Assembly (NCBI GenBank): GCA_944322175.1
Contig: CALUOB010000001.1
Coordinates: 1 to 64,000 of the forward strand
Source of the DNA: an uncultured Coriobacteriaceae bacterium
GTDB taxonomy: Bacteria > Actinomycetota > Coriobacteriia > Coriobacteriales > Coriobacteriaceae
Direction of reading: 5' to 3'
Length of the DNA stretch: 64,000 bases
The notes beneath the pieces were generated by a model. The model was not told the origin of the DNA and searched no databases. It saw only the letters and a program-made list of their open reading frames with translations. Position 1 is the first letter of the stretch. Each line of letters starts with the position of its first letter. Made by a program: the position numbers and the translations under genes. Below are positions 41,908 through 46,362 of this stretch, piece by piece.

Positions 41908-41992
41908 GGGGGCGTGGCGGAATTGGCATACGCAGGAGACTTAAAATCTTCGGCCGCAAGGATTGAGGGTTCGAGTCCCTCCGCCCCTACCA
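41908..41992 (+). tRNA. tRNA-Leu (UAA)
   Basis: An 85-nt class II tRNA with a long variable arm. Acceptor GGGGGCG pairs with CGCCCCT (G-U at the first pair), the anticodon loop is CTTAAAA, the T arm is GAGGG-TTCGAGT-CCCTC, and CCA is encoded. The 20 bases at its 3' end (41973-41992) are repeated downstream. Confidence 0.95.
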
Positions 41993-42002
41993 AAATTGAT
42001 TT

Positions 42003-42026
42003 GGGTCTCTACTTGGGACCCTTTTT
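42003..42026 (+). terminator. tRNA-Leu terminator
   Basis: GGGTC (42003-42007) pairs with GACCC (42017-42021), followed by TTTTT. Confidence 0.8.
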
Positions 42027-42176
42027 CATGTCGATAGCCCCTCTCATGGACTCGAACCCGGTAGGGCGCGGAGCTGAGCAAACGGCGGAGCCGTTTGCCA
42101 GCGAAGCGCGCAAGGGGCCGGAGGCCCCGCAGCGCAGGCGCGGCGCCAGCCGCGCCGAGTCCCTCCGCCCCTACCA
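42021..42176. repeat. tRNA-tail repeat unit 1
   Basis: Begins CTTTTTCATGTCGAT, then CATGGACTCGAACCC (its GGACTCGAACCC is the reverse complement of a T arm), then nested palindromes (CAAACGGCGGAGCCGTTTG; GGGGCCGGAGGCCCC; GGCGCGGCGCCAGCCGCGCC-like) and ends with a perfect 20-bp copy of the tRNA-Leu 3' end at 42157-42176. No reading frame of interest. Confidence 0.9.
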
Positions 42177-42182
42177 TGGTTG

Positions 42183-42421
42183 TAAAGGCTCCGGCAGCGG
42201 GGCCTTTTTCATGTCGATGGCTCCTCCCATGGACTCGAACCCCACTGGGGCCGCGAGCGTTAAGCGGAGAGGCCGGTGGCCTCTCCGTAGCGAGCGTGGG
42301 CGCGCGCGGTGAGCGCGCGGCCTCTCAATGGAACGCGGAGCGTTTGTAGCGAGCGCGCGAGGGCGCGAAGCGCCTGAGCGAACGCGCGGCCCCAGCCGCG
42401 CCGAGTCCCTCCGTCCCTACC
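42183..42421. repeat. tRNA-tail repeat unit 2
   Basis: Same architecture as unit 1. A terminator-like hairpin with different stem bases (AGGCTCCG / CGGGGCCT, near 42186-42204) is followed by TTTTTCATGTCGATGG and CATGGACTCGAACCCC, several GC-rich palindromes (GGAGAGGCC/GGCCTCTCC; GCGCGCG), then CAGCCGCGCCGAGTCCCTCC and a 19-bp tRNA 3'-end copy with one mismatch at 42403-42421. Confidence 0.85.
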
Positions 42422-42427
42422 CGCAGG

Positions 42428-42545
42428 TTGAACTCTGCGCGAAATCACATGCGATCCGGGTGTGCGGCGCCAAAAGAAGCGCGATCCGAACGTGCTGCGC
42501 AAAAACGCACGCGATCCGGCTACCGTGTCGCAGCTTGCATTTCGG
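42428..42545. repeat. 30-bp tandem array with GCGATCCG
   Basis: GCGATCCG recurs exactly every 30 bp at 42451, 42481 and 42511, each preceded by GCGC-AAA-like sequence. In one frame it reads as a ten-residue repeat of the form (C/G)AK-x-x-AIR-x-C. It has no start codon or ribosome site. It resembles the 19-bp GCGATCG array at 1142-1237. Confidence 0.8.
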
Positions 42546-42650
42546 ATGATCTACACCGTTGCGCTATCTGTAGAGCAAATGCCCTCTGGAGAGGACCTTA
42601 TCGGCCTTGCGGGCGGGAAAAGATCAAGCGTTCACCAGGATCGAAGGCCG

Positions 42651-42755
42651 TTTCGCGCAACGCGCCCGTATCGACCGTGTTTTCGCGCAGCGCGCCCATA
42701 TCACTCGCGTATCTGCGTCATGCAGCGCGCCAGCCGCGCCGAGTCCCTCCGCCCT
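42651..42755. repeat. Second 30-bp tandem array plus a third tRNA-tail fragment
   Basis: TTTCGCGCA recurs at 42651 and 42681 with 30-bp period, and a decayed third unit starts at 42711. The array runs into CAGCCGCGCC followed by GAGTCCCTCCGCCCT (42741-42755), a 15-bp remnant of the tRNA-Leu 3' end. The remaining sequence to 42924 is the leader of the adhesin gene. Confidence 0.75.
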
Positions 42756-42924: not shown

Positions 42925-45900
42925 ATGATCCGACCTCTGTGGGGCCGCGCGCTGGCGGCCCGCATCCCCGTCCTTCTCCTCTGCGCGCTTGTTGCCGGCA
43001 TTGCCGCACCCGCGCAGGCGTGGGCGGGAATCGAAGATTGCACCGTGCAGGGAACGTCGCCGCGCGGCACGACTATCAACTTGTTTGACTACTGGCTCGA
43101 TGCGCAGGGCGCGCGCGACGACGTGAACCCCGCCGATTACCTCAACGCTGGCATCAACGCCGGAGAAGTGCTCAAGTTCGGCAAGAACATGGGCACCGCC
43201 CAAAATACGAGCGAGACGAGCCTCACGACCGAGACGGTGAACTACTGGACGCGCTCCGCCCGCCCGCGTACGGGCATTGTGGACAACGTGCTTGCCCCGG
43301 ACGGCTATCCGCGCCTCAACAGCGCGCGCCTCGGCGGCGGGTCGCTTGCGTACCTCTTTGACCGCGAGGCGCATAACGGCAAAGCGGCGTACTCGGGTGT
43401 CAAGGGCCTGCTGCAGGTAGACCGCCAGGGCTACTATTACTACAACAGCCAGGAGAACTTCGTGCAGTTCAACGCTGCCACCGGCATGTTCACGCTCTTC
43501 GACGCGTGGGGCGTCAAGGCTGGCGGCGCTTCTCCCAACGGGCAGTTCTTCCCTTTCAACACCGGCTCCCAGGTGTTTGGCACCGCCCAGCAAGACGGGC
43601 GCGAGGTGCTCCAGCAGAAGAACGTGTACTCAACGAGCCCGGGCATCAAGCACTACTTCGGCATGACGATGTCGACGCGCTTTGTGCAACAAAACGGCGG
43701 CCATACCAACGAGGAGCGCCAAACGCCGGTCACCTACAACTTCTCGGGCGACGACGACGTGTGGATCTTCATCGACGGCGTGCTCGTGGGCGACCTCGGC
43801 GGCATCCACGACAAAACGTCGGTATCGATCGACTTCAGCACGGGTGAGGTCGTGGTGTACTGGGATAAGAACGACGACAACGAGTTTGACGCCGGCGACG
43901 AGGCGTACAGCACGTCGACGCTACGCGACTGCTTCGAGCGCGCCGGCGTTGCGGCAAGCTTCTCGGAGAGCACCTTTGCCGACGACACTTATCACACGCT
44001 TGACTTCTTTTATCTGGAGCGCGGCAATACCGACTCCAACATGTCGCTGAGGTACAACCTGGTGAGCATCCCCGAGTCGGACGTGGTCAAGGTCGACCAG
44101 GCAAGCGAGCCTATTGCCGGCGTTGTATTTGCCCTGTATCCCACGGGCGAGAACTACAAGGTTGCCGAGGGCGCGGAGCCCGCCTATACAGGCCATACCG
44201 ACAACTCGGGCACCATGACGGTGCTCGACGGCCAGCGCGGCTTTCCGGTGGCGCTCAGCGAGCTCGAGCAGAAAAGCGCGCACTGGGTCTTGCGCGAAAC
44301 GTCGGTGCCTGCAGGGTACCGTCATGCGGACGATATCCCGCTGTACTTTGACCCTGCGATCACCTCGAACACGCTACTCTTCTCGGCTGACCCGTGGGGC
44401 ACGGGCGCGTACGCGCAGCCCAAGCTCACGTCGACCACCACGGCACAGGGCGTGTACGGCGTAGACGGCGAGCGCCTGTCTACCGATTCGGGCGAGCTGC
44501 CCGAGGGTGCCTGGATGTTTGCCGTGGTGATGCAGAAGGGATCAGACGGCGCGTGGCACGCCGTAATGGGAAACGCTCTGGACGGCTGGCATATGAGCGC
44601 AAGCGAGGGCATGGAGGGCGTGGTCGAGGCAGCCCACTCCGGCGATGCCGACCGGTTTGCGCTCAACAGCAACGGCATGTACCAAACCGAGGTCACCAAC
44701 ATGCCCGGCGACATCAAGACCTACGAGTGGATCGTGGAGAACAACCCGGGCGTGGGTGCCCCGTCCAGCATTCGCTACACCGTGCAGTACTTCTATACGA
44801 CGGCCTCCGACGCTGCTGACGTTTCGGTCGACAACACGGTGCGTGTGCGCAGCGGCGCCGACGACTTTGAGCGGCAGTTTGCCACGCGCCTGTACGTAGC
44901 AAACATCGAGAACCGCCTCATGGTGCAGAAACTCGACGAGAGGGGAGAGCCGCTGGAGGGAGCGGAGTTCTCGCTCTTCCGTGCCGACGACGTGACGGTG
45001 GCCGACGGCAAGGCTGTGGTGAACGAGGGCGCGCAGCCTGTTGCCACGGCGGTTACGGCGGATCTTGAGATCACGAGCGCTAACGGCGGCGGAAGCCTGA
45101 CGCTCAAGGGCGCGCTGGCGTTTGGGCGCATCGTGGGGTCTCCGCTTGACGAGGGAGCGTACTACCTGCTTGAGTCGCAGGCGCCACAGGGGTATCTGGT
45201 TGACGAAACGCCGGTGAAGGTTGTGGTGGACGAGACCGGCGTCTATGCCGATGCGGGCGGTGCCGACGACGGCGTGGCGGTGGCGCGCGGCGTGGGTCGC
45301 GTTGTGGGCAGCATGCAGCAGTTCACCGTTGACGACGACGTGGACGCCACGCTGCACGACATCAAGGCCGCGCTTGTGACGGCGCCGAGCTACGAAGGCG
45401 AGCAGACCACATGGTCAAAGCCCGATTGGCGGCAGACGTCGGGTCCTGATGCAACAGCCATGCACCTGCAGTACAACGACCCGGGGGACAACCTGCCGGG
45501 CGCGGTGTTTGACTACGCCCCGGTGGGCGAGGGTTCGATTGGGCTCGAGACGAAGATCGGCTGGTCAAAGCTCATAGTGGAACAGGACCTTGACCGGGAG
45601 GACGGCGCGTCCTCGCCAAAGCAAGACCTGGGCGACCGCGACATTGCCGGTCTTTACGCGGGGTCGGTTATCGTACGCGTGAGCGACGATCCGGTTGCGA
45701 GCGAAGAACCCGGAGAGCCCGAGAACCCCGGCGGAACGGGCGGCTCAGAGAACCCTGACAACCCTGACAACCCTGACAACCCTGACAACCCTGACAACCC
45801 TGACAACCCTGACAACCCTGACAACCCTGACAACCCTGATGATCCCGGCACTCCTGAAGGTCCCGGCGATTCGGACAATCCGAGCGAACCCGGTGGCTCC

Positions 45901-46362
45901 GATAAGCCGGATGAACCGGACGACCCGGATGACCCTGACGACTCGGATGGCCCGGACGATTCCGATGACGCGGGGGACCCGGGCGACTCGGGCGAGACGG
46001 ACGAGCCCGAGACCCCCGACAGCCCGGACCATGGCGAGAAGCCCGATGCGCCGGACGAGGGCGGCTCGAGCGGTGATCAGGGCGGTGGTCCGGGAGACTC
46101 CGACAAGCCGGAGGGTTCCGAGCAGCCCGGCGAGTCAGGCGACCAGAACAACGACGGCGACACATCTGGCGGAGGAGCGAACGAGGCCCCCGGCGAGCAG
46201 GGCAATGAAGGCAACCAGGAATCTCGGAGCAGCCAAGACGAGGCGCCCAGTTCTTCTCTGCCACCCACGGCCGACTACGCTCCGATGGTTGTGATTGGCA
46301 CCACTCTCATGGCGCTCGGCTCCACCGCGCTCGGCGTTTTGCTGCGCCGGCGCAAGCGGTGA
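42925..46362 (+). CDS. Large cell-wall adhesin: fibro-slime and Cna-B domains, LPPTA sorting signal
   Basis: A 1145-residue secreted surface protein. A signal peptide (residues 1-36, ending AQAWA) is followed by a fibro-slime domain with the hallmark FSGDDDVWIFIDGVLVGDLGGIH near residues 273-292. Two Cna-B/SpaA-like domains follow (VVKVDQASEPIAGVVFALYP and LMVQKLDERGEPLEGAEFSLF), both with the Lys and the closing Glu motifs used for isopeptide bonds (VLRETSVPAGY; YLLESQAPQGYL). Residues 925-1110 are a Pro/Asp/Gly-rich wall-spanning stalk with ten NPD repeats. The C-terminus has SLPPTADYAP, a hydrophobic helix and RRRKR, a sortase signal with Ala where Gly is usual. AGGGAG precedes the ATG. 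No sortase gene is adjacent. Confidence 0.9.
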   Translation: MIRPLWGRALAARIPVLLLCALVAGIAAPAQAWAGIEDCTVQGTSPRGTTINLFDYWLDAQGARDDVNPADYLNAGINAGEVLKFGKNMGTAQNTSETSLTTETVNYWTRSARPRTGIVDNVLAPDGYPRLNSARLGGGSLAYLFDREAHNGKAAYSGVKGLLQVDRQGYYYYNSQENFVQFNAATGMFTLFDAWGVKAGGASPNGQFFPFNTGSQVFGTAQQDGREVLQQKNVYSTSPGIKHYFGMTMSTRFVQQNGGHTNEERQTPVTYNFSGDDDVWIFIDGVLVGDLGGIHDKTSVSIDFSTGEVVVYWDKNDDNEFDAGDEAYSTSTLRDCFERAGVAASFSESTFADDTYHTLDFFYLERGNTDSNMSLRYNLVSIPESDVVKVDQASEPIAGVVFALYPTGENYKVAEGAEPAYTGHTDNSGTMTVLDGQRGFPVALSELEQKSAHWVLRETSVPAGYRHADDIPLYFDPAITSNTLLFSADPWGTGAYAQPKLTSTTTAQGVYGVDGERLSTDSGELPEGAWMFAVVMQKGSDGAWHAVMGNALDGWHMSASEGMEGVVEAAHSGDADRFALNSNGMYQTEVTNMPGDIKTYEWIVENNPGVGAPSSIRYTVQYFYTTASDAADVSVDNTVRVRSGADDFERQFATRLYVANIENRLMVQKLDERGEPLEGAEFSLFRADDVTVADGKAVVNEGAQPVATAVTADLEITSANGGGSLTLKGALAFGRIVGSPLDEGAYYLLESQAPQGYLVDETPVKVVVDETGVYADAGGADDGVAVARGVGRVVGSMQQFTVDDDVDATLHDIKAALVTAPSYEGEQTTWSKPDWRQTSGPDATAMHLQYNDPGDNLPGAVFDYAPVGEGSIGLETKIGWSKLIVEQDLDREDGASSPKQDLGDRDIAGLYAGSVIVRVSDDPVASEEPGEPENPGGTGGSENPDNPDNPDNPDNPDNPDNPDNPDNPDNPDDPGTPEGPGDSDNPSEPGGSDKPDEPDDPDDPDDSDGPDDSDDAGDPGDSGETDEPETPDSPDHGEKPDAPDEGGSSGDQGGGPGDSDKPEGSEQPGESGDQNNDGDTSGGGANEAPGEQGNEGNQESRSSQDEAPSSSLPPTADYAPMVVIGTTLMALGSTALGVLLRRRKR
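45751..45840 (+). repeat. 9-bp coding minisatellite (ten units, NPD repeats)
   Basis: Nine identical AACCCTGAC units followed by AACCCTGAT encode (Asn-Pro-Asp)10 in the stalk of the adhesin. DNA-level identity of the units suggests recent expansion by slippage. Confidence 0.97.

Follow-up and report, generated by a model that had tools for sequence, protein, structure and literature searches.

An apparently unrecognised family of tRNA-hugging repeat units that resembles the E. coli tyrT repeat

The serial repeats behind the tRNA-Leu(UAA) gene of an uncultured Coriobacteriaceae bacterium look like part of an unrecognised family of tRNA-hugging elements, which resembles a single odd repeat of E. 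coli. The array lies in a window of 64,000 nucleotides, the whole stretch of DNA analysed, from a genome with 46 tRNA genes (G000), and was compared with a close relative (G002) and with other genomes. In each unit the 3' tail of the tRNA gene, from T-loop C56 to the CCA, and its terminator are followed by a folded element, X, by a second tail and often by a second terminator. The array may well consist of two such units plus a remnant, belonging to a widespread miniature family in which X spreads as a non-autonomous mobile element.

The array behind tRNA-Leu(UAA)

The host gene occupies 41908..41992 on the forward strand (ARAGORN; Rfam RF00005, 53.8 bits), on which all features of the array lie, and its 21-nt tail from C56, CGAGTCCCTCCGCCCCTACCA, occupies 41972-41992. 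Read from the sequence, a first T-tailed, terminator-like hairpin follows at 42003..42026 (GGGTC...GACCC, then TTTTT). Unit 1 contains an anti-T arm (T'), GGACTCGAACCC, at 42048..42059, which over its 12 nt reads exactly as the reverse complement of T-arm positions 41967-41978 (inverted repeat I5); an X of sub-type B at 42048..42155 (match to covariance model R1 at 42045-42167, E 2.6e-18; RNA fold z -6.6); and tail copy 1, exact through the CCA, at 42156..42176 (direct repeat D1). In unit 2, a second terminator-like hairpin, likewise seen in the sequence (42184..42209), is followed by the same T', GGACTCGAACCC, at 42231..42242 (inverted repeat I6), by an X in a composite long form at 42231..42401 (R1 match 42295-42413; cross-locus comparison) and by tail copy 2 at 42402..42421 (D1), which matches at 19 of 21 positions over 42402-42422, equivalent to 20 nt with one change. 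Downstream of both hairpins stand CATGTCGAT and CATGGACTCGAACC, in a 40-nt repeat that is 93% identical, and the unit length in this array is 184 bp. The third stretch, 42422-42739, holds degenerate repeats of about 30 bp and just the right edge of X (CAGCCGCGCC) before a 15-nt tail remnant; edge and remnant together span 42727..42754 (D1 and D3), with the tail part at 42740-42754.

The initial annotation had described copies of the tRNA-Leu(UAA) tail, a reverse complement of the T arm, and first and second hairpins that differ in stem sequence and still pair, all of which are real. Its statement that each following unit opens with a hairpin and an anti-T arm is correct for units 1 and 2 and fails for the third stretch, which has neither.

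Two neighbouring features deserve mention. Between 42428 and 42725 the degenerate repeats (..GCGC(G/A)AAA..CGATCCGG..) are arranged as direct and then inverted copies around a centre of about 110 bp; the array of G002 is followed by this stretch too, and repeats like these occur after tRNA-Phe, Pro-CGG and Gln-UUG. They look like a second repeat family, perhaps the ends of a small element. Further downstream, at 42925-46362, an open reading frame of 1145 amino acids with a signal-like start carries a long NPD/NPDD proline-aspartate repeat and ends in an LPPTA-like motif and a membrane tail, giving it the appearance of a wall-anchored surface protein.

Distribution and linkage to tRNA genes

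Units stand behind some 17 of the 46 tRNA genes of G000, about a third: Ala-UGC, Arg-CCG, Arg-ACG, Glu-UUC, Gly-GCC, Gly-CCC, Leu-UAA, Leu-CAA, Leu-CAG, Lys-CUU, Lys-UUU, Phe, Ser-CGA, Ser-UGA, Thr-UGU and Val-UAC, with a truncated unit at Gln-UUG; tRNA-Tyr of this genome has none. The anti-T arm lies some 40-70 nt, and the tail copy some 100-230 nt, downstream of the tRNA, and the interior X is common to all unit-bearing loci (alignment A1). A pattern derived from X, run over G000, matches just these tRNA loci and one further site with three mismatches.

The covariance model R1 matches 52 of the 67 genomes of the family, in five of its six genera and often with 5-20 matches per genome; the two richest genomes are G002 (23 matches) and G000 (20), and 15 genomes have no match. 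A tRNA was present at 29 of the 30 family loci fetched. Matches in other families of the order are weaker, and nearly all of those examined adjoin tRNAs with matching tails. One genome of another family, f5 (G252, contig C51, locus L123), has as its sole match a unit behind tRNA-Leu that comes very close to the type of family f1 (E 2e-21), and a match of this strength would fit horizontal transfer.

A motif scan over 84,980 species genomes places units in Clostridia, Propionibacteriaceae, Atopobiaceae and Collinsella. Among its 22 stretches, 18 have a unit directly behind a tRNA and a further two hold arrays of units at the edge of a contig; the other two, from Sphingomonas and Polyangiaceae, contain no unit and have no tRNA in the vicinity. 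When nine of the motif-scan genomes were searched in full with the broad model R2, each gave 1-5 matches, mostly behind tRNAs. In two stretches from Propionibacteriaceae/Actinomycetes MAGs (L240 at about 822-1100 and L236, on the match strand) the tail is followed by a short loop and a perfect reverse complement of 19-24 nt, so that tail and T' fold back on each other in a hairpin at the very end of the tRNA. No exact match to the pattern was found in viral contigs and no match in phage records, while plasmid records gave mostly tRNA matches and one Collinsella record covering unit sequence. Rfam scans of the window and relatives returned no family for the units.

The suggestion of a repeat family that copies tRNA ends, made in the initial annotation, thus turns out to be right and of general reach, with tRNA-specific tails behind many tRNAs both in G000 and in its relatives. 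Units located far from tRNAs and invariant in length were not what we found: a tRNA adjoins nearly all family loci fetched, the number of units per tRNA ranges from zero to several, and presence and absence differ between genomes. The same anatomy is found in the one-contig genome G061 and at the finished E. coli tyrT/tyrV locus, and its recurrence there and behind many tRNAs, each with its own tail, excludes chance and assembly artefact. Several contigs end inside units (C92, C48 and C54 of G002; C4 of G000, locus L047), which indicates that short-read assemblies break at unit-bearing tRNA genes.

Anatomy, tail specificity and fold

The anatomy was measured over 111 extracted units. X is about 110-120 nt long including the anti-T arm with which it opens, and it forms four hairpins. 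The distance from the tRNA end to the anti-T arm has a median of 54 nt, and the tail copy usually matches at 21 of 21 positions, intact to the CCA. For the 97 units with a clear anti-T arm, which represent 14 isotypes, the ten acceptor-side bases of the tail match those of the unit's own tRNA at 9.68 of 10 positions on average, against 3.74 of 10 for other isotypes.

The closing stem of X covaries with the T stem of each tRNA, its 5' strand being the anti-T arm and its partner the T-stem strand of the tail copy. Position 4 of the stem pairs in all 97 units (TA 66, CG 19, AT 7, GC 4, GT 1; 62.8 in shuffles) and position 3 in 95 (83.9 in shuffles), and the inner hairpins of sub-type A covary as well. 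Inverted ends are present, as anti-T arm and tail copy, but they belong to the tRNA and not to the element. The lowest-energy fold of unit 1 keeps three inner hairpins and pairs the tail copy differently, without the closing stem; the case for this stem accordingly comes from covariation across units. A stricter rule for T', as the reverse complement of the full tail, was rejected (outer bases match at 2.05 of 6 positions against 1.47 by chance, with 8 exceptions among the 97). A decay of tail copies with distance from the tRNA, as the Leu array suggests, was likewise dropped: none is seen over all arrays, although the match measure fails for units in which the tail begins a few bases later.

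Fold z-scores on the sense strand are -6.6, -2.1 and -3.9, against -4.4, -1.2 and -3.0 on the antisense strand. On the tRNA strand 157 of 227 loops are GNA or GNNA, with C-G closing pairs in 203, while only 5 have the complementary form TNC or TNNC, which identifies the tRNA strand as the one that folds. Loops of the types cGNAg and cGNNAg are unusually stable in DNA, and for this reason we lean towards a single-stranded DNA form, an RNA form being possible too. The motif series of X, CGAACCC..GGGCGCGAGCGTNAAG..TAGCGAGCG, recurs from Clostridia to Coriobacteria.

Duplication, sharing and turnover

Recent direct copies are near-identical over 62-120 bp. Their left edge is sharp at C56, mostly with no identity beyond it, and their right edge is close to the anti-T arm, about 74 nt further along. 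Of the 78 first-in-line units, 40 match at 30 or more of the 40 bases that follow the CCA, as in a duplication that runs through the terminator; in other units the shared part is the tail alone.

Between G000 and G002 the identity of X averages 88% at the same tRNA and 64% at different tRNAs. X at a given tRNA is thus usually orthologous in the two genomes, which implies slow movement. Against G001 and G003 the link to the same tRNA is mostly lost and the nearest X often stands at another tRNA; G003 has no unit at Phe, Lys-UUU, Ala-UGC or Gln-UUG. The composite X of unit 2 is found again at tRNA-Val(UAC) of G000 (89%) and at tRNA-Gly(UCC) of G002 (86%), the X at tRNA-Val is just 53% identical between G000 and G002, and the X elements of Lys-CUU and Lys-UUU are 97% identical. 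These comparisons indicate that copies of X pass from one tRNA gene to another and that X is lost or replaced between sister genomes, although the sharing of X between tRNA genes could also reflect gene conversion. At tRNA-Gly(UCC) a unit is present in G002 and absent from G000, and this difference could equally stem from loss by recombination between direct copies.

In some Collinsella-like genomes tRNA-Arg(ACG) and its unit are repeated in tandem, with up to three copies of the gene (loci L085, L086, L087 and L091 in G067, G072, G060 and G076, respectively), so that tRNA amplification coincides with the units there; the arrangement is akin to the tandem of tyrT and tyrV in E. coli.

Relation to known systems

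The initial annotation held that nothing of this kind had been described, which was too strong. The 178-bp tyrT repeats of E. coli, the source of rtT RNA, share the anatomy. They lie directly downstream of the tRNA and end in an exact copy of its last ~19-21 nt to the CCA; their length of about 178 bp compares with 184 bp in the Leu(UAA) array. At tyrT/tyrV the order is tRNA tail, spacer, anti-tail GGGGAAGGAT, hairpins with GCA and GAA loops, and tail copy ATCCTTCCCCCACCACCA. Anti-tail and tail copy form a closing stem, which rests on covariation in our units and on a predicted fold in E. coli, and the inner hairpins likewise have C-G closed GCA/GAA loops. The E. coli junction ..GTAATCC resembles the clostridial ..GTAATTCC, and duplication of tRNA and unit in tandem is seen in both. 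To our knowledge, the tyrT repeat and rtT RNA are known at tRNA-Tyr in enterobacteria only, whereas the units described here stand behind at least 14 isotypes, in most cases beyond a terminator, and each tail is fitted anew to its tRNA. The covariance model of rtT RNA (RF00391) matches none of the 67 family genomes and none of 11 loci, E. coli being the sole match among the controls, and R2 scores the E. coli units at ~11 bits, no better than the E. coli background. The units thus share the anatomy of the tyrT repeat, with no sequence homology detectable by these models. In the open-access literature we found no description of a family of tRNA-tail units.

Like REP/BIME sequences with their RAYT and like MITEs, the units are short, palindromic, non-autonomous and multi-copy, with inverted ends and a flanking direct duplication. 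They differ from both in their strict linkage and orientation to tRNAs, in ends that derive from the tRNA itself and in a duplication of ~62-120 bp, which, unlike the target duplication of a MITE, is not of fixed short length and has its left edge fixed at C56.

Origin of the units

X would move as a folded single strand of tRNA sense, DNA being likelier than RNA in view of the cGNAg/cGNNAg loops; it would recognise its T-arm targets by pairing with them, and on inserting would duplicate the segment from tail to terminator, so that tRNA and terminator stay intact. Recombination between the tail copies would then yield tandem units and extra tRNA genes. It is a tentative proposal of ours that this amounts to a new class of mobile element, which targets tRNA 3' ends by base pairing between its folded strand and the T arm, enters downstream of the terminator while duplicating sequence from C56 onwards and so always re-acquires the tail of its new host, and of which the E. 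coli tyrT repeat would be the sole described, perhaps domesticated, example. No mobilising protein was found.

The initial annotation had offered accretion at a tRNA attachment site as one of two alternatives. As at the attachment sites of integrative elements, the tRNA 3' end is duplicated from the T loop and the tail copy restores the tRNA; serial accretion at a tyrosine-integrase site, each tail being an attR left by a small element, nevertheless has next to no credibility. Tails differ per tRNA while X is common, and the same X stands behind at least 14 isotypes; since the tail is re-matched at each tRNA, always to the local gene, no circle can carry it from place to place. Nor is the duplicated core confined to the tRNA end, since it runs on past the gene through the terminator. 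No integrase was recognised on reading the open reading frames around the Leu array. A Y1 (HUH) transposase acting on single-stranded hairpins, in the manner of REP/RAYT or IS200/IS605-type elements, would suit palindromic, non-autonomous units with sense-strand hairpins; a Y1_Tnp gene is present in 55 of the 67 family genomes, and an IS605 pair adjoins one clostridial array. Yet neither G000 nor G002, the genomes richest in units, has a Y1_Tnp (PF01797) match, which makes this transposase an unlikely mover. Moreover, the units are bound to tRNAs instead of being dispersed through extragenic DNA, and HUH insertion is not known to cause a target duplication, whereas duplications of ~75 bp are seen; we consider this explanation highly improbable. 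The IS605 beside the clostridial array was discarded as a part of the unit (separate genes), as was a RAYT 4-5 kb from a Collinsella tRNA-Lys unit as the mover (a separate gene, with other genes between). In G061 (L255, C1:879500-887000) such a RAYT-like Y1 gene follows the tRNA-Lys unit at a distance of ~4.5 kb, and a similar spacing recurs in several Collinsella-like genomes, probably as plain synteny.

The units might instead be by-products of replication with no dedicated element, with fold-back synthesis and template switching behind tRNA genes being induced by stable d(GNA) mini-hairpins and by the T arm, itself an imperfect palindrome. The perfect fold-back tails of Propionibacteriaceae, GNA loops that could seed hairpins and units ending in a truncated X speak for this. 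It is improbable all the same: the recurrence of one X series from Clostridia to Coriobacteria means that X was inherited or transferred and not made anew, and the pattern scan of G000 found no X away from tRNAs save the one match with three mismatches. The main rival takes the units for genes of a structured RNA that the host maintains, comparable to E. coli rtT RNA: this RNA would arise when transcription reads through the terminator and would be processed at the tail-copy CCA as a tRNA 3' end is, and the duplication would come from unequal recombination between tails. In E. coli, rttR begins 8 nt beyond tyrV and its annotated 3' end falls exactly on the tail-copy CCA; tail copies in our units are usually intact to the CCA, the fold is conserved and covarying, the loops are on the sense strand, and this strand has the lower z-scores. 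A host function would also agree with the exclusive linkage to tRNAs in several phyla. Against it stand the 15 family genomes, and most tRNA genes of a genome, that lack units, the gain or loss of units between sister genomes, their position behind a terminator and an X common to unrelated tRNAs, so that we regard it as a serious but rather unlikely alternative. Spread of X as a mobile element and maintenance of an rtT-like RNA by the host may both be partly true.

Implications

The tyrT repeat has until now been a one-locus curiosity of E. coli. In a gut actinobacterium the same anatomy, re-fitted to each tRNA, is found at roughly one tRNA gene in three, and it is present in Clostridia and Propionibacteriaceae as well, which opens the questions of how such units originate and whether RNA is made from them. 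For the study of these genomes there is a practical side, as units can break assemblies at tRNA genes and several contigs end inside one. The family also offers a mechanism for the duplication of tRNA genes, of which the tRNA-Arg triplets of relatives are an instance, and points to a mobile process that uses the T arms of tRNAs without an integrase.
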